Source of the DNA: Micavibrio sp.
GTDB lineage: Bacteria; Pseudomonadota; Alphaproteobacteria; Micavibrionales; UBA2020
Length of the DNA stretch: 64,000 nucleotides
Direction of reading: 5' to 3'
NCBI GenBank assembly: GCA_028283745.1
Contig: JAPWJZ010000008.1
Location: 623,290 to 687,289, forward strand
The translations under genes and the position numbers were made by a program. How positions within the stretch are numbered: the first letter of the stretch is position 1; each line of letters starts with the position of its first letter. Positions 7,323-21,952 of the stretch are shown in pieces. The notes below the pieces were generated by a model that saw only the letters and a program-made list of their open reading frames with translations, ran no database searches and had not been told where the DNA came from.

Positions 7323-9744
7323 ATGGCGCAGCCAACGTCCCGGTCGTTTTATGCGGGTGTTTTTATTATCAGCGGCCTATTGATGGCGCTGCAGGTTCTG
7401 CAGGCTCGTATTTTCTCAGTCACGACCTGGTATCACCTGTCCTTCCTGGTCATCAGCATCGCCATGTTCGGCCTCACGCTAGGCGCTCTTTACGCCCACA
7501 AGGAAGATGAAGCAACGCAACGCCAGAATTACGGCACGCTGATGACCGAGGCATCCGCCCGCTTTGGCCTCTTTATTTTGCTGGCATTAATTGCGCAGTT
7601 GCGGCTGCCACTTGCCTTCGCGGAAGCATTGAAGACGGCAATCTTCCTGCCGCTGATCGCAGCATGCACAATCCCTGCTTATTTCTATGCGGGCTATGTC
7701 TTGAGTCTCGCGATGACGCGTGCGCCTTTCCCCTCGGCACGCACCTATGGTTTCGATTTGCTCGGTGCGGCCGCCGGCTGCCTTTTGACGCTTGCCGTTA
7801 TGGAGGCAATTGATGCGCCGTCCGCGGTGCTGCTTGTTTCGGCGGCGGCCCTTCTGGCGGCACGCTGCTTTGGTCCTTATGAAAAAAAAGCGTGTGGTCA
7901 TTTATGCCCTGATCGTCGCTGTGGTGGCTGCAGCTAACGCGGCGGCGCCCAAGCCCTTCGTTTTTCCGCTTTATATCAAGCACGGCACGCTTGATGAATC
8001 TGAACTCTCCTATGACAAGTGGAATTCTATTTCACGCGTGACCGTTAGCAATGAACGGGTTGATTACGCGCCTTTCCTCTGGGGGCCTTCCGCCAAGCTG
8101 CCGGAAGGCCTCAAGGTTTCAAACTACTGGCTAAAAATTGATGGCGATGCAGGCACGCCGCTAAATAAGTTTGCTGGTGACTGCTCCAAACCGCTGAATT
8201 ATCTGGACTATGATGTCACGACTATTGCTTATTCTATGCCGGGCCTTTCAAAGGCGGGCATCGTCGGCCTTGGCGGTGGTCGCGATGTTCTGTCCGCCTG
8301 CCATGCAGGCATCCATGACATCAAAGCCATGGATGTAAACTCAACTCAAGTCTCTCTGCTTACGCGTATCCAGCCCTATAAAGACTATACAAAAGTCTCG
8401 CAAATTCCGGGTGTGGAGCTGATACACAGCGAAGCCCGCAGCTGGTTTACCGCGCACCCAGCTGATAAGTTCGATATCATCCAGATGAGCCTTATCGATA
8501 CTTGGGCATCAACTGGCGCTGGTGCCTTTGCCCTTTCCGAGAATGGGTTGTATACAGTCGAGGCTTGGCGCACGTTCCTGTCGCGTCTGCGCCCCGGCGG
8601 AGCCATGACGGTTAGCCGCTGGTATCTTAGCGACGCGCACAGCGAAATGGAGCGTTTGACGGCTCTTGCCATGGGCACTTTGTTTGATATGGGGGCGGCT
8701 GAGCCTTACAAGCACATTTTCGTCGCCGCGGCCGACAAGATTGCAACGCTTGTGCTCGCGCGCGATCCATTTACGGATGCGCAGTTGAACGCCCTTGAAA
8801 AACGCGCCCATGTTATGAGTTTCAAAATTCTGATTTCTCCACGCCTGAAGCTAACGGAGCAGAATGGTGAATTGCCGAAAATACTCGGTGCGGCTTCAAG
8901 CGATGAGCTGATGCGTGCTGCGGACCAGAGTGTTTTTGATTTGCGTCCGCCGACCGACCAGCGGCCGTTCTTTTTCAACCAGGTGCGCATTACCCACCCC
9001 TGGCATGTCTGGCAGCTGATCGCACAGAACGAGGCAACGGCCATGCTCGGACATGCGCGCGCCATTTTCAACCTCTACATCATCATCCTGTTCTCTACCG
9101 CGATGGTGCTGGTGACGATTGTCTTGCCGTTAAAGCGTGAAATCCGCAATACGTCGGGCAAATTCGTTGCGAGCAACACGGCGTGGTTTGCGCTTATCGG
9201 GCTTGGCTTCATGTTCATTGAGATTTCGCTGCTGCAGCGGCTCAGTGTATATCTCGGGCATCCAGCTTATGGCCTCAGCATCGTGCTCTTTAGTCTTATC
9301 CTGTCAACGGGCATCGGCAGTCTGCTCTGTTCGCGCTTCCCGCTTAAAACCGGTGCCGCACGCACGGGCTGGGCGGTCTTGACGGCGCTTGCGGCGGGTG
9401 CCGGCGTACTGGTCATCAACTATGTGACGGTACATTTTGCGGAGGCGGACCTCGTCACGCGCGCTGCGCTCAGCATTGGCCTTATCGCCCCCTTGGGTTG
9501 CCTGCTTGGTTTTGGCTTCCCGACCGGCATGGATATGGCAAGTGCTGTCAGCGCACGTTCAACGGCATGGCTATGGGGTATCAATGGGGCGGCGGGCGTC
9601 ATGGGCAGCACGCTTGCTATTGCCTTCAACATCACCTTCGGTATCGACTGGACGATGTGGCTTGGCGGCTTGTGCTATCTGGCGCTGGTGGTGCCGGTCG
9701 CTATGGCCAGCAACGGTAATAAAACCGCAGCCGGCCATGCGTAA
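7323..9744 (+). CDS. Membrane-embedded spermidine synthase-like protein, frameshifted in an A8 tract
   Basis: Two overlapping frames together encode a protein of about 806 residues. 7323-7937 gives an N-terminal set of transmembrane helices and the following frame (to 9744) gives a spermidine-synthase-like Rossmann domain (GLGGGRDVLSA motif, acidic DVNS, SEARSW) and then more membrane helices. The frames join exactly at the A8 run 7882-7889: removing one A reads YEKKRVVIYALIVAV and restores one protein. RBS AAGGA precedes ATG 7323. Related proteins join SpeE-like domains to membrane helices, with unproven substrates. The break may be an assembly error, a pseudogene, or slippage. It lies near decarboxylase and DHS-like genes, which fits polyamine chemistry. 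Confidence 0.75.
7882..7889 (+). repeat. A8 homopolymer at the frameshift
   Basis: Eight consecutive A residues where the reading frame changes from that of 7323 to that of the spermidine-synthase-like domain. With seven A the gene would be continuous. Such tracts are hot spots for sequencing indels and for polymerase slippage. Confidence 0.85.
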
Positions 9745-11194: not shown

Positions 11195-12271
11195 TTACTT
11201 GAACAGTTTTGCCCAGTTGCGGGCTTTGCGTTTTTTCCAGTGACCGCGATGGTATGCGTCGGAGGCGAGCAGCGGCATGACCGAGCCTGCTTCCGCAAAA
11301 ACCATCTGCTCGAGCGCCACGTCAACCTTGCCCCAGCTGCATGCTTCCTTCAGCGTAGAGGAAGAGCAGGCGCCGTCGCGCACATCGGCCACGGTGATTT
11401 GCACTGCGTATTTGTGCATATCGACATCGTTATGGCCGAGGATTTCAGCGCAGACAACGGTGTCCTGCGTGAAGTTCTTCGGCACGCCGCCGCCAATCAT
11501 GAGGAGGCCGGTGGTGCCGGCTTCGATCTTGACTTCGGTCAGTTCGCGGAAGTCGGCGACGGAATCGATCGTCATGTAGGGCTTGCCGGCCTTGCGGCGC
11601 TTCACCTGGTGCAGCACCAGGCCGAAACCGGCGGAGCTGTCGACGAAGGCGGGGCAGAAGATGGGCACGCCTTTCTCATAGGCGGTCTGGACAAGGGAGC
11701 CTTTTTTCTTGGCGTTCTTCACCAGGTATTTGCCCATTTCGTGGATGAATTCGCGGGACGAGTAGGGGCGCGGTTCCAGTGTTTCGCAGATCTTGAAGAT
11801 GGTGTGGTCAACCGCCTGCAGGTCTTCTTCATCGATGTAGGTGTCATAGATGCGGTCGATGTAGAGGTCGCGAAGGTCGCGGTCGTCAACCTGCGCATCG
11901 GCCTGGTAGTGCTTGAAGCCGAGGGCTTCAAAGAAGTCCATGTCGACGATGGAGGCGCCGGTCGCGACGATCACATCCAGCATGTTCGACTTCACCATTT
12001 CGGTGTAGAGGTCCATGCAACCGCCGGCGGAGGTGGAACCCGCGAGCGTCAGGATGGAAGTTGCGCCCTTGTCCTGCAGCATGGTGTTGAAAATTTCGGT
12101 CGCGCGGCCGAGGTCGCGCGAGGTGAACGACATTTTGCCCATGGCTTTGACAATGGGGCGGGCGTCGAACTTGGTGATGTCGATGTGTTCGACCTCTTTG
12201 CTCAGCAGCACGGCCTTGCGGTTGCTTTTGGGCTGCGGCTTGGTCTTGACCGATTTAAGGTTGGCTTTCAT
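11195..12271 (-). CDS. Deoxyhypusine synthase-like protein (polyamine aminobutyltransferase family)
   Basis: A 358-residue member of the deoxyhypusine synthase (DHS) family. DHS moves the aminobutyl group of spermidine to a lysine of eIF5A through an enzyme lysine. Bacteria lack eIF5A, and bacterial homologues are thought to transfer the group to small amines, giving homospermidine- or guanidino-aza-nonane-type products. The NAD-site segments (TLAGSTSAGG; GGGVPKNF) and the catalytic SWGK motif with K315 are present. The N-terminal 20 residues are basic. It lies 80 bp downstream of a PLP decarboxylase on the same strand, so the two very likely form a polyamine operon; the exact product is unknown. 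Confidence 0.88.
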   Translation of the reverse strand: MKANLKSVKTKPQPKSNRKAVLLSKEVEHIDITKFDARPIVKAMGKMSFTSRDLGRATEIFNTMLQDKGATSILTLAGSTSAGGCMDLYTEMVKSNMLDVIVATGASIVDMDFFEALGFKHYQADAQVDDRDLRDLYIDRIYDTYIDEEDLQAVDHTIFKICETLEPRPYSSREFIHEMGKYLVKNAKKKGSLVQTAYEKGVPIFCPAFVDSSAGFGLVLHQVKRRKAGKPYMTIDSVADFRELTEVKIEAGTTGLLMIGGGVPKNFTQDTVVCAEILGHNDVDMHKYAVQITVADVRDGACSSSTLKEACSWGKVDVALEQMVFAEAGSVMPLLASDAYHRGHWKKRKARNWAKLFK

Positions 12272-12351
12272 GGTTTTGGTTAGTCCTTGTCAATATCGCT
12301 GTTGCGCGGCCTGTTGGCTTTTAAAGGCGTGTACTTGCTGTTGATAGCCCC

Positions 12352-13548
12352 TTAAGCGGCGCAAAGCTCTTTTGAATCCGTCGTTTCCTGGGTGTCATCG
12401 TACATCGTCACCAGCGGCGGGGCTTTGACGCTGACGACTTCATGGGCCGAAAAGCCGTTGAAGTCGGTGCGCATCGTGTTCCCGTAGGCACCGAGCTGGC
12501 CGATCTCGATGTAATCCCCTTCCCGGACGTCTTCCGGAAGAAAGAAGGGGCCTGGCATGTAATCAATGCTGTCGCACGTGGGGCCGTAGAAACGGAAACC
12601 CTTGTGCGGCGCATTGGTGCCCCCCGGCGTCGGACGGATGAGACGAACCGGGTAACGGAAACCGAGGTGGCCTGCGTCAAACAGGCTGCCATAGGTTCCA
12701 TCGTTAATGTAAAGGACATCGTCCTTGCGCAATTCCACCTGCACGACAACGCTGGCGCTTTCAGCGACCATAGCCCTGCCGGGCTCGCACCAGAAATCGT
12801 AGCGGTCGGGGTGGGGCAGCTTGTCAAAGCCGTTTTCAATCGCGGCTTTGTAATCCTGCAGCGCGGGCGGCGCCATGTCAGGGTAAATCGACGGGAAGCC
12901 GCCGCCGATGTCGATGACATCGACCTTCGTGCGGGGGATGGAACGCAGGATGCCGCCCACGATGGACAGGGCCGTGGTATAGGCCTGCGGGTCCATGGTC
13001 TGGGAGCCGACGTGGAAGCAGATGCCGGTTTTGCTGGCGTGCTTGCGGGCGGCCTTCAAAATCTCGGCCGCTTTTTCGGGCATGCAGCCGAATTTGCCGG
13101 TCAGGGGCAGCTCGGACGAGGTATTGGGCACGGCAAGGCGCAGCATCAGGCCCAAATCTTTCGATTTGCCGGTGCAGGCGATGATTTTTTCCATCTCCTC
13201 AACGGAATCGAAGGAGAAATCGCGCACGCCGTAATCGAAATACGCCTGTTCAATGGCATGGCGGCTTTTAACCGGGTGCATAAAGGCAATGTGGGCGCCG
13301 GGCGCAAGTTCATGCACCAGCTGGATTTCGGGGATGGAGGCGGCGTCAAAGTGCGTAATGCCCGCGGTGTGCAGGGCCGACAGCACATAGCGCGCAGGGT
13401 TCGCCTTGACGGCGTAAAGCACCTTGCCGGGGAAATTGTCCAGGAACCAGCGGGCAGCGCTATGGAGCGCCGCAGGACGGTAGCATGTAACGGGGATAGA
13501 TGGGCGGTTTCGTCGAACCACCTCGTCGGGTGTGTCGTACATTTCCAT
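12352..13548 (-). CDS. Type III (alanine racemase-fold) PLP-dependent decarboxylase, ornithine/diamine type
   Basis: A 398-residue fold-III PLP enzyme of the ornithine/lysine/diaminopimelate decarboxylase group, making diamines such as putrescine from ornithine. The PLP lysine is K48 in YAVKANP, HVGSQ and the glycine-rich phosphate loop DIGGGFPS follow, and the active-site Cys is C325 in GPTCDSID. The length fits short bacterial ornithine or lysine/ornithine decarboxylases rather than arginine decarboxylase SpeA. ATG 13548 follows GGAG at 8 bp; a TTG six bases earlier is also in frame. The DHS-like gene directly downstream could use the diamine or a derived polyamine. Confidence 0.9.
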   Translation of the reverse strand: MEMYDTPDEVVRRNRPSIPVTCYRPAALHSAARWFLDNFPGKVLYAVKANPARYVLSALHTAGITHFDAASIPEIQLVHELAPGAHIAFMHPVKSRHAIEQAYFDYGVRDFSFDSVEEMEKIIACTGKSKDLGLMLRLAVPNTSSELPLTGKFGCMPEKAAEILKAARKHASKTGICFHVGSQTMDPQAYTTALSIVGGILRSIPRTKVDVIDIGGGFPSIYPDMAPPALQDYKAAIENGFDKLPHPDRYDFWCEPGRAMVAESASVVVQVELRKDDVLYINDGTYGSLFDAGHLGFRYPVRLIRPTPGGTNAPHKGFRFYGPTCDSIDYMPGPFFLPEDVREGDYIEIGQLGAYGNTMRTDFNGFSAHEVVSVKAPPLVTMYDDTQETTDSKELCAA

Positions 13549-13773
13549 TGGCAAACTCCAAAGAACGTCGAGAAGAGAAAAGTAACTTCGAGATGTCCCG
13601 CACGCGAATCGTCTGCTGCAATGGCCTCATAATTTTAGGTTATAGGGAGATTCGGATTTTTGTAAAGCAGAAATGAAACTCTGAACGCTGTGGAGATAAA
13701 TTTTGCCGTGCATGACGCAGCAGCGTCACACTTTTGCCGCGGGGCACCCCTGTGGGTTTGTACGCGTGCGGCA

Positions 13774-15387
13774 TCAGCCGCGCGGGGCGGCCTTCGGGGT
13801 TTTGTTCTCCACCTGCGGCGCTTTGCCGGCATCTGCGGGCTTGGCAAATGCCGCCAGCGACGGCTCCTGCTTCACAATGTCCACGCCGTGGCGGGCATTG
13901 GCGGCCACGTAGTCCATGCGGGTGATGCCGTAGAGCAGGCTTTGCTGCAGCTTGGTCATCAGCGCGGGCGTGGCCGCATTCTCCGGGTCGGCCTTCAGCT
14001 TGGCCAGCAGGCCCTCCTGCAGCTGCCCGTAGGCGTGGATAAGGCTGGCCGGGGTAATCTTGCCGTCCAGCTCGAAAGCCTTGGCGTCAAGCGCCTGAAA
14101 ACCGTTATAGGCGCGCACCTGCTGGTAGACGGCGTTCTCCGCCGTTGTCAGCGGGGCGGCGGGGTCTGCCTGCGCGGGTTCGGCGCGCATATAAATTTGG
14201 TGGTACTTCAGTGCCTTGTGGAATTCGGGCTCTTTGTCCAGCTTGGCGCGCACGGCCATTTGTTCCCGGCGGGAGGTTGCTTCGTACAACAGCGAGTATT
14301 CAACGCTTTTCGCCGTATGCCCAGCTTCCTCGACCGCGCCGTAGTAGAATTCAGCCGCCACGTTGTCCGGCAGTTTGCGGAAGTTTTCAATGCCATAGGC
14401 GGCCACATGGGCCTTGAAGGCGTCAATCACGGGGCTGGAAATGTGCAGGATATCGTGCGGATTGGCGGCGCGCCACGTGCTGGCAGCGTCCAGCACATCA
14501 AGGCTGGCCCCTTCAAAGCGGATCATGTCACCCAGCGCGCCCACATCCGCCAGCGCTTCCTTCCGGGTCTGGTTGGCGATGGTCTGCATCAGCTCCTTGT
14601 CGGCCAGCACATCGGCTATCGGGCGGCCCTGCAGGCCAATTGATTGCCCAACGGGGGCGGTGGGGTAGCGGTCATCCAGGCAGTGCCAGCCTTCGTGGCG
14701 GTTGATGAAGGACAGACGCTGGTTATAGGTAAAGCCCGGCACAAGGTAGGGGCTGTGGTCGGAACTGGGCACAATTACGCAGGCGCCGTTTTTGTCTGTG
14801 CTGGCATCCGGAATGGTCAGGGGGTCCTGTGTGTACATTTGAATGCCGTAGCGGTAGGGCTGCTGGCTGGCCATGTGCGCCGTCATGGCGATCAGGTCCG
14901 GCCCCGACGCCTCGATGCCTTTTTCGCCCAGCAGGTCGCGCACCAGCAGAACGGGCGAAACGCCAAGGGCAACGCCCGCGTCAAACCGGTTCGGGTCCAG
15001 CACGGTCACAGTTTTGGCCTTCGCCTGCGGGTCGGCGGCAAGGCGGCCTTCCAGCTGCTTGCCCTGTTTCACCAGATCTTTCGAATAGCTGGTTTCCGCC
15101 TGCTGGGACAGGGTAACGAATTTTTTCTGCGCGTCCGTCACCAGCGTGGTGGTAATGCGCACGCGCCGCGTCAGCTCGGCGGCCTGCGCGGGGGTCATGC
15201 TCGGCAATTTGGCGGTATCTGCCGCCTGCGGCAGCATCATGACGGTGCCCTGCGGCGCGTTATCCGGCGCGGTGGTGGTCTTGCTTTGCGCCATCGCCGT
15301 GCCGCCGGCCAGCAGGGAGGTGGATAGCGCCGTTGTCAGCACAAGCTTGCGCCAGACGGTCTTCAGGGTATTGGGCTGCTGTTGCAT
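13774..15387 (-). CDS. Secreted protein with HEGWH/ExxxD putative zinc-peptidase signature (paralogue A)
   Basis: A 537-residue exported protein with an N-terminal signal peptide ending near GTAMAQ. No named family is recognised. It carries HEGWH at residues 231-235, matching HExxH, and EALAD (E277, D281), matching the ExxxD third-ligand motif of gluzincin peptidases, 41 residues later. The paralogue just upstream has both motifs with identical spacing, within shared blocks ACVxVPSSD and NRHEGWHCLD. The C-terminus is Ala/Pro-rich. It starts 18 bp after the stop of paralogue B, so they form an operon. Periplasmic metallopeptidase activity is an inference from these motifs. Confidence 0.8.
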   Translation of the reverse strand: MQQQPNTLKTVWRKLVLTTALSTSLLAGGTAMAQSKTTTAPDNAPQGTVMMLPQAADTAKLPSMTPAQAAELTRRVRITTTLVTDAQKKFVTLSQQAETSYSKDLVKQGKQLEGRLAADPQAKAKTVTVLDPNRFDAGVALGVSPVLLVRDLLGEKGIEASGPDLIAMTAHMASQQPYRYGIQMYTQDPLTIPDASTDKNGACVIVPSSDHSPYLVPGFTYNQRLSFINRHEGWHCLDDRYPTAPVGQSIGLQGRPIADVLADKELMQTIANQTRKEALADVGALGDMIRFEGASLDVLDAASTWRAANPHDILHISSPVIDAFKAHVAAYGIENFRKLPDNVAAEFYYGAVEEAGHTAKSVEYSLLYEATSRREQMAVRAKLDKEPEFHKALKYHQIYMRAEPAQADPAAPLTTAENAVYQQVRAYNGFQALDAKAFELDGKITPASLIHAYGQLQEGLLAKLKADPENAATPALMTKLQQSLLYGITRMDYVAANARHGVDIVKQEPSLAAFAKPADAGKAPQVENKTPKAAPRG

Positions 15388-15405
15388 GGCGGGTCCGGCC
15401 TTTTT

Positions 15406-17067
15406 TCAGGGTTTGGGCGTTGACGTGTTATTGCGGTTGTGGCGCGCGGCTTGCGGCTCCCCCGGCTTGTAGGGCGTGCGGAAGGCGGCAAGCGACGGTT
15501 CGACGTTGACAAGGTTTACGCCGCGCTTCGCATTGGTGGCAAGGTAATCGATATGCGTCAGGTCCTGCACAAAAACGCCCTGTAGCTTGCCCATCAGCGC
15601 GGGCGTGGTGGTATTGTCGGGGTTGCGGGCAAGTTCTTCCTGAAAGCGGCCCTGCATGCGGCCGTAGGCGGCAATCAGCGTTGCGGGGGTAATTTTACCG
15701 TTGGCCTTGAAGGCTTCATCTTCCAGCTTCTTGCGGGCATCGAAGGCGGTGACGGTGCGCAGGGTCGCCTGTTCCTGCGGCGTCAGCTTGTCGGTGAAGG
15801 CGGGGCCAGCCGCCTGCGGCTGGGTATAAAGGGCGCGGAAGGCAACGGCCTTGTCAAATTCCTGCGTGCCGCCAAAGGCGCGGGTCAGGCTGCCGCGCAT
15901 CGACTCGCTCGCGGCATCAAGGCGCAGGGCGTATTCATAGGCTTTCGGCTGCATGCCGTAGCGCTCGTTGATGGCGAAGTAAAAGTCTTCCATCTTCTTT
16001 TCATCCATGGCGCGGAAGGCCTCAACCCCGCCCATGCCGGTAATCGCATCACGCAGGCCCTGCAGCACCAGCACGGACATGTGGGACACATCGCGCGCCT
16101 GCCCGCGCCGCCAGTCGCGGATGGCATCGAGGAATTCAAGCCCCTTGCCCTCCTGCCGGATCATGTCGCCCACCGCACCGACATCCGCGAGGGATTCTTT
16201 GCGGGTCGTCAGCGACATGCCTTTCAGCAGGTCGGGGCTGGCAAGAACTTCGGCGGTGGTGATATTCTCGGTCGCGCCTTTCAAGTTGAGGCCCTGCAGC
16301 AAATAGCGCGTATCCAGGCAGTGCCAGCCTTCGTGGCGGTTGGTAAAATCCACCCGCTCCGCCGCGGTAATGCCGGGGATGACGATGGGCATGTAATCCG
16401 ACGACGGCACGACGACGCAGGCCTGTGCGGTCATTTTTTCGGAGTTGTAAATGGCGGCGGGGTCTTGCGTGGTGGTGGCAAGGTCATAGCGCAGGTCATA
16501 GCGGCCGGTGGACATATGATCTGCCAGCGCATCTACCTGCGCATCATCGGCGGTGGCCTTGGCAAGCGCCAGCAGCGCACGCACGGCGTTTTGCGGCTCC
16601 ATGCCAAGGGCGCGGGCGGTGTCGAACTGCACGGGGTCCAGGAAGACAACGCGGTCGTGCACGTTGGGGTTGCCGCCCTGCGACAGCAGCGTGCCTGTCA
16701 GGCGGCTTTGCAGGCTGAGAAGGCCGCGCGAATAATCATTCTGCGCCAGCGGGGCGACGTAATCAAAATTCTTCTGTGCTTGGATGATCAGCGTTTCGGA
16801 TATCGCAATGCGGCGCATTTCTTCGCGCTGCGCCCGTACATCGACCATCAGCTCATCCGGCAGCTGGATCTGCGGTTCAGGCCCGCCGCCAAGGCTCTGG
16901 GTTTGCGGGGAAGGTGGCGGGGCATCTGCCGCTTCCGCCTGCAAGGGCACGGAGCCGATGAAGAGCGAACCGGATAATGCCGTGGAAAAGGCCATTTTGC
17001 GCCAGAAACGGCCTGTTACGGCTGCCGAAGCGTCAAAAAAACGGCTCTCTTTAGGGTCTTGTGCCAA
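15406..17067 (-). CDS. Secreted protein with HEGWH/ExxxD putative zinc-peptidase signature (paralogue B)
   Basis: A 553-residue exported paralogue of the next gene. HEGWH lies at residues 245-249 and ESLAD at 291-295, again 41 residues apart. The signal peptide follows a longer cytosolic N-terminus (MAQDPKESRFF...) and ends near LQAEA. A TTG at 17067 is the preferred start: GGGGGG lies 6 bp upstream and the preceding small ORF stops only 2 bp before it, implying coupled translation. Other starts are ATG 16995, which would cut the signal region, and TTG 17112. Function is unknown; a zinc peptidase of the periplasm is the working inference. Confidence 0.75.
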   Translation of the reverse strand: MAQDPKESRFFDASAAVTGRFWRKMAFSTALSGSLFIGSVPLQAEAADAPPPSPQTQSLGGGPEPQIQLPDELMVDVRAQREEMRRIAISETLIIQAQKNFDYVAPLAQNDYSRGLLSLQSRLTGTLLSQGGNPNVHDRVVFLDPVQFDTARALGMEPQNAVRALLALAKATADDAQVDALADHMSTGRYDLRYDLATTTQDPAAIYNSEKMTAQACVVVPSSDYMPIVIPGITAAERVDFTNRHEGWHCLDTRYLLQGLNLKGATENITTAEVLASPDLLKGMSLTTRKESLADVGAVGDMIRQEGKGLEFLDAIRDWRRGQARDVSHMSVLVLQGLRDAITGMGGVEAFRAMDEKKMEDFYFAINERYGMQPKAYEYALRLDAASESMRGSLTRAFGGTQEFDKAVAFRALYTQPQAAGPAFTDKLTPQEQATLRTVTAFDARKKLEDEAFKANGKITPATLIAAYGRMQGRFQEELARNPDNTTTPALMGKLQGVFVQDLTHIDYLATNAKRGVNLVNVEPSLAAFRTPYKPGEPQAARHNRNNTSTPKP

Positions 17068-20983: not shown

Positions 20984-21952
20984 ATGTGGCATAATCTTTC
21001 CTATCGTCCTTTCCAGTCAGCAGGTTCCGGCATGTCTCAGCGTTTTTACCTTGTTTTCGCCACTTTCATTTTCGGCATCGCGCTGCTGGCAACGCCCGCG
21101 CCGGCGGCCGATACTGCTGTTAACCAGAGCATGCAAAAACAGGAAGTGCAGCGCATCAGTGAGCCGGATGTACGCCCCGCGCATTTGCAGGAACCCGCAA
21201 GCCCCTCCGAGCATGAAGCGGAAGAAGCGCCGCATACCGACCTTATAGCCACCATCACGCCCGACGCGAAGCTGCAAAAAGGCAAGCCCGCAAAACTGGT
21301 GCTGCACCTGAAAGATGCGGAGGGCAAGCCCGTTGCCAGCGACCAGCTGGAACTGCGCCACACGCAGCGCATTCACCTGCTTGTCGTTGACCAGTCGCTG
21401 AAGGATTACCACCACCTGCACCCGAAGGCCGGCAAGGTGGCGGGTGATTACGAATTTTCCTTTACGCCGGCAACCGCGCATAACTACCGCGTTTTCGCCG
21501 ATGTGCAAAAAACCGGCGGCAATGCCGAAATGGTGCCCGCGCTGTTGAATGGCGCCGCGCCCTGCAAGAAAAAATGCATCCCGCAGGATATTGCGGCAGA
21601 TGCAACGGAAGCCGGCATTACAGCGCATATCACCTTTGACCAGCCCGCCTACAAGGTCGGCACACCCGTGCATGGCGAAGTGACGTTGCAGGATAAAAAC
21701 GGCGCGCCGCTGAAAGACCTTGAACCCGTCATGGGCGCCTACGGCCACATCGTCGGCTTCTATGATGATTTCAACACCACCGCCCATATGCACCCCCTGG
21801 GTGCGGAGCCGAAAAAGGCGGATGACCGCGGTGCGTCGCCGCTTACCTTCATGCTGCACCCGGCGCGTGCGGGTTACCTCAAGTATTACGTGCAGGTACG
21901 CCGCGGCGACAAAGACGTCTTCCTGCCCTTCGGCCTGATGGTGGGTGAGTAA
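20984..21952 (+). CDS. Exported His-rich immunoglobulin-like protein, possible metal-binding
   Basis: A 322-residue protein with an N-terminal extension and signal peptide (hydrophobic core near 22-40, APAADTA cleavage). Two beta-rich domains each carry a His motif: YHHLHPKAG near 140 and TAHMHPLG near 263, the pattern seen in YtkA/FixH-like and secreted copper-type proteins. A Cys pair (CKKKC) lies between them. AGGAG 7 bp before ATG 20984 decides the start; an internal ATG at 21032 would still give a signal peptide. Metal binding is inferred from the His clusters and not proven. It abuts the orphan GspF-like gene. Confidence 0.75.
   Translation: MWHNLSYRPFQSAGSGMSQRFYLVFATFIFGIALLATPAPAADTAVNQSMQKQEVQRISEPDVRPAHLQEPASPSEHEAEEAPHTDLIATITPDAKLQKGKPAKLVLHLKDAEGKPVASDQLELRHTQRIHLLVVDQSLKDYHHLHPKAGKVAGDYEFSFTPATAHNYRVFADVQKTGGNAEMVPALLNGAAPCKKKCIPQDIAADATEAGITAHITFDQPAYKVGTPVHGEVTLQDKNGAPLKDLEPVMGAYGHIVGFYDDFNTTAHMHPLGAEPKKADDRGASPLTFMLHPARAGYLKYYVQVRRGDKDVFLPFGLMVGE

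Follow-up and report, generated by a model that had tools for sequence, protein, structure and literature searches.

Gluzincins are zinc peptidases in which the HExxH motif of the zincins lies on a helix and the third ligand is a downstream glutamate, usually found within ExxxD, on a second helix. In thermolysin, 19 residues separate HExxH from this glutamate. M1 aminopeptidases have a fixed spacer of 18 residues together with a GxMEN motif, and the motif of the M49 family is HExxxH. Either a histidine or a tyrosine can stabilize the transition state in known gluzincins. Micavibrio is a predator of other bacteria, and the enzymes with which it digests its prey are of interest. A 39 kDa prey-lysing proteinase has been reported from Micavibrio admirandus, and in the genome of Micavibrio aeruginosavorus, with its 49 proteases and peptidases, an M23 peptidase has been proposed as the sole size match for this proteinase (PMC3189940). 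The genome studied here belongs to the order that includes this bacterial predator, and the family that we describe supplies exported candidate peptidases.

The window, by which we mean the whole stretch of 64,000 nucleotides that was analyzed, comes from a Micavibrio sp. genome (GCA_028283745.1, contig JAPWJZ010000008.1; G000:C5:623290-687289). Two adjacent genes in it encode proteins that are very probably exported members of an undescribed zinc metallopeptidase family with the gluzincin active-site pattern, absent from Pfam and NCBIfam. The family has most likely been expanded in tandem in relatives of Micavibrio. The two genes point the same way, gene 2 being the upstream one, with 18 bp between them (Table 1). 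The open frame of gene 2 offers an alternative start at TTG 17112 (568 aa). The original prediction had described the products as adjacent exported paralogs with HEGWH and, 41 residues on, ExLAD. This is what both reading frames contain: the proteins share 36.7% identity across 539 aligned residues, and the gap between the two motifs is exactly 41 intervening residues in each. By chance, HExxH appears in 1.2% (gene 1) and 0.45% (gene 2) of shuffled sequences. Judged by sequence and hydropathy, each N-terminus runs from a short basic part through hydrophobic residues to an AxA-type end, and both products likely bear an export signal.

Table 1. Features of the gene pair, in window coordinates
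Feature	Position	Strand	Basis
Gene 1 (P0001), exported HEGWH...EALAD protein, 537 aa	13774..15387	-	ORF
Gene 1 signal peptide, likely Sec, residues 1-33, WRKLVLTTALSTSLLAGGTAMA followed by Q	15289..15387	-	sequence and hydropathy; inferred
Gene 1 catalytic domain, residues 66-405	14173..15192	-	AF2 pLDDT 93.5, pTM 0.91
Gene 1 HEGWH (H231, E232, H235), residues 231-235	14683..14697	-	predicted helix 221-237
Gene 1 EALAD: E277 (proposed third zinc ligand), D281	14545..14559	-	predicted helix 264-292
Gene 1 R306	14470..14472	-	invariant across 51 motif-bearing homologs
Gene 1 H315, candidate oxyanion-stabilizing residue	14443..14445	-	alignment of 24 core homologs
Gene 1 C-terminal helical domain, residues 408-515, family-specific, includes GKITPASLIHAYG	13843..14166	-	alignment and AF2
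Gene 2 (P0002), exported HEGWH...ESLAD paralog, 553 aa	15406..17067	-	ORF, TTG 17067
Gene 2 HEGWH (H245, E246, H249), residues 245-249	16321..16335	-	sequence
Gene 2 ESLAD: E291, D295	16183..16197	-	sequence

Within the taxonomic family, a profile built from the core members detects the protein in 11 of 18 genomes. With the widened profile (A3), it is found in 47 of the 142 genomes of the order and in 14 of the 385 genomes sampled from the class, the genome of origin included (13 without it), and a sample of 235 genomes from the phylum yielded none besides that genome. When genome contigs were searched, a single-protein query gave 0 loci and an alignment query gave 11, all on contigs already found. 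Two more members are encoded in the genome of origin (G000), at G000:C5:830951-831661 and at G000:C5:407324-408061, and one member in this genome (L160, 427 aa) is without an export signal. One of the other genomes (G056) was identified as Micavibrio aeruginosavorus ARL-13 and encodes two full motif-bearing members: a lipoprotein-like protein of 434 aa with HEGFH...ETFAD (L073:946-2247, + strand) and a protein of 466 aa with HEVWH...EMFAD (L119:1419-2816, - strand). Some relatives look like lipoproteins; in L009, L010 and L011, a lipobox-like LISGC lies close to the N-terminus, and the C-terminal tail contains a CGCP motif. Four paralogs of the exported group (L015, L020, L022 and L023), two of them inside arrays, have no recognizable signal peptide. 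Larger relatives with HELGH...ECxAD and no Pfam match occur in other alphaproteobacterial orders (L148-L156), several of them 780-835 aa long with no obvious export signal. The member of genome G008 (L013:1420-3095, + strand) is split over two frames (389 + 267 aa), by a frameshift or an assembly error.

Three genomes share one gene order, typA, peptidase genes, ornithine/arginine-type decarboxylase and deoxyhypusine synthase, with two peptidase copies at the locus in the window genome, three in G005 and one in G002. An array of five copies is present in G001, and one genome has about 10 family members. The array copies are old and divergent, with orthologous copies common to G001 and G005. 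In the window, the deoxyhypusine synthase-type and decarboxylase genes occupy positions 11195-13554 and adjoin the pair, as they do in the three genomes inspected; an agmatinase-like gene is next in G002 and G005. Given these neighbors, the cluster looks like one of polyamine genes. Two further window proteins have no Pfam match at E 0.001: one of 650 aa that resembles a membrane-fused spermidine synthase (7792-9744), and an exported protein of 322 aa (20984-21952).

What such enzymes would cut may be considered from their export and expansion. Because the core group is exported and tandem-expanded in relatives of a bacterial predator, the breakdown of prey or environmental protein would be a plausible and the most natural role, which we offer as a guess with a chance near, or somewhat short of, even. 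A serious competing view of the substrate, itself held at a little under an even chance, is that the same peptidases act on the cell's own envelope, in protein quality control or the processing of surface proteins. Members without export signals, both in the genome of origin and in other alphaproteobacterial orders, fit this view, whereas a core group that is exported and, in one lineage, strongly expanded in tandem would be more usual for proteins of nutrient acquisition or interaction.

The original prediction recognized no named family, and the searches agree with it: Pfam and NCBIfam gave no useful match for either protein or for the other family members scanned, none of which scores above the curated cut-off of any family in these collections, and PDB sequence searches with a single protein and three profiles returned nothing useful. 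There was no match in PHROGs or PADLOC, no family member in the viral contigs and plasmids searched, and no match for the string HEGWH in a literature search. No biochemical test of any family member was found in the literature searched.

Structure prediction with AF2 gave a model of the full-length gene 1 protein (pLDDT 85, pTM 0.84, from 24 homologs) and one of its catalytic domain (from 40 homologs; Table 1). HEGWH is placed on a long helix, as in zincins, and this helix follows a set of short strands; EALAD is on the next long helix. The downstream glutamate of the gluzincin pattern is thus present and in position within ExxxD on a second helix, where it may serve as a ligand. In a VIA-align 2 comparison of the domain, zinc peptidases fill ranks 1-18 of the 50 matches listed, with moderate Z values. 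The best matches are to dipeptidyl peptidase III (DPP III, M49), with Z of 8.7 (238 aligned, a high rmsd of 9.8), 7.0 and 6.9, followed by M36 with 6.6 (188 aligned, rmsd 5.0) and 6.2, then M32 (5.4), M9 (5.0), M1 (5.0) and M61 (4.5), values within a range that possibly reflects a shared arrangement only; a family missing from these matches is not excluded by its absence. DPP III, M1 and M36 also lead the matches of the full-length model. Foldseek searches of the PDB with the full-length and domain models found no significant match (all E > 0.1), and a fold search against viral models found no match. Each Z is modest, and it is the uniformity of the match list that speaks for a zinc-peptidase fold; the modeled fold appears nearest to zinc peptidases, mostly gluzincins.

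The pair could instead belong, as a highly divergent branch, to a known gluzincin family such as DPP III/M49, M36 or another, which we consider improbable. In favor of this, DPP III comes first in both VIA-align lists, with M36, M9 and M1 next. Against this, no member scanned has a Pfam or NCBIfam match at a useful E-value, and the named families fail on the features tested, so we have not filed the pair under any of them. For M49, the HExxxH feature is replaced by HExxH in all motif-bearing members, and a search for M49 family proteins in the genome of origin and 40 class genomes found none. For M4/M36, there is no Pfam match, the spacer is 41 residues and the likeness is one of fold only. 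For M1, the spacer is 41 rather than 18, GxMEN is in neither protein, there is no PF01433 match, and a profile-profile (HH) comparison with the M1 aminopeptidases of the same genomes showed no similarity. True M1 enzymes are encoded separately in the same genome.

For the pair as members of a family of its own, conservation of the active-site pattern was assessed with 55 homologs gathered by profile search, many pairs of which are less than 25% identical; the counts exclude L083 (poorly aligned, without HExxH) and L013:2295-3095 (the second half of the split gene). Among 24 core homologs, the mean column identity is 31% and 11 columns are invariant, including H231, E232, H235, E277, D281, R306 and H315. 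The widened profile A3 deliberately omits the pseudoenzymes L049, L050, L081b and L082b, which makes the invariance of HExxH in A3 one of construction, and the unbiased counts are those over all 55 homologs. Free variation of H231, H235 and E277, which would have spoken against the original prediction, is not seen in these: the residues are kept in 51, 51 and 54 of the 55, respectively. Asp or Glu at position 281 and Arg or Lys at position 306 are found in all 55, and E277 and R306 are invariant in the 51 that bear the motif. Position 315 is His in 36 homologs and Tyr in 13, and is not invariant in distant members. The spacer from HExxH to the glutamate ranges from 26 to 46 residues within the core family.

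The four homologs without both motif histidines form one well-supported clade (L049:502-2118, +; L050:1381-2931, -; L081:2435-3892, -; L082:2457-3926, -), which indicates that the two residues were lost together, and such a joint loss has the look of a lost metal site. In G001 and G005, the histidine-less copy adjoins an active-type paralog. A dN/dS of 0.22 between two of the histidine-less proteins indicates that they are kept. This clade lends something to the notion that the proteins of the pair, once exported, have a structural or binding role on a retained peptidase fold, with activity lost or irrelevant. We rate that as very unlikely, since 51 of the 55 homologs, both window proteins included, retain the whole set of residues at low overall identity. 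As to selection, the original prediction had argued from tandem duplication that both copies are selected for function. Duplication alone is a weak argument, and better backing comes from near orthologs among family members elsewhere, with a dN/dS of 0.08-0.18, from which we conclude that the family proteins are held by purifying selection.

Taken as a zinc peptidase pair, as first proposed, the proteins have motif conservation and a predicted fold that looks closest to zinc peptidases in their favor, from which we infer zinc binding and catalysis. H231, H235 and, past the 41-residue insert, E277 would bind one zinc ion, and E232 would activate the attacking water in peptide-bond cleavage. D281 may orient a histidine ligand, and H315, which is His or Tyr in relatives, may stabilize the transition state. 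The enzymes would be exported to the periplasm or beyond, where they probably cut proteins or peptides. That HExxH serves some other chemistry, as in a ChlB-like 2-oxoglutarate-dependent oxygenase, is hardly credible, because the single entry for the ChlB HExxH domain (8s5f, Z 2.9) in the list for the full-length model is far below the peptidases and ChlB is absent from the 50 domain matches listed, every motif-bearing member has the ExxAD glutamate, as expected of the third ligand in a gluzincin, and no oxygenase family was matched.

Pfam and NCBIfam searches miss these candidate peptidases, two of which are in the cultured strain ARL-13 (434 and 466 aa). Little-studied bacteria related to predators thereby gain an enzyme set that is directly testable, and the natural inactive-type relatives should help to trace how an active site is built and lost. 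A wider view is possible, if doubtful: an undescribed, broad alphaproteobacterial gluzincin family with a long loop between HExxH and the glutamate, an invariant arginine and an extra helical domain, whose exported, tandem-expanded members in Micavibrio relatives would belong to a prey-digesting set, and which keeps a zinc-less pseudoenzyme branch beside active copies.

Several known systems can be set beside the new family. M9 collagenases, M61 and M32 are zinc peptidases among the first structural matches (Z 4.5-5.4), with no sequence relation to the new family and a different domain make-up. M1 aminopeptidases (Z 5.0) also have HExxH and a downstream glutamate. Fungalysin (M36) and thermolysin (M4) have HExxH and ExxxD, like the new family, and a downstream catalytic histidine, for which H315 is the candidate here, but the spacer of thermolysin is 19 residues in contrast to 41 here (26-46 in the core family), and there is no Pfam match to either. 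The best structural neighbor is DPP III (M49; Corallococcus, 5zum), a zinc peptidase whose catalytic region is mainly helical and whose glutamate ligand lies far downstream, on another helix, as is also predicted for the new family. It differs in having HExxxH where the new family has HExxH, no sequence relation between the two was found, and the C-terminal helical domain is extra to the new family. The result amounts to a well-founded annotation of an enzyme family that had lacked one, whose mechanism is not of a new kind.
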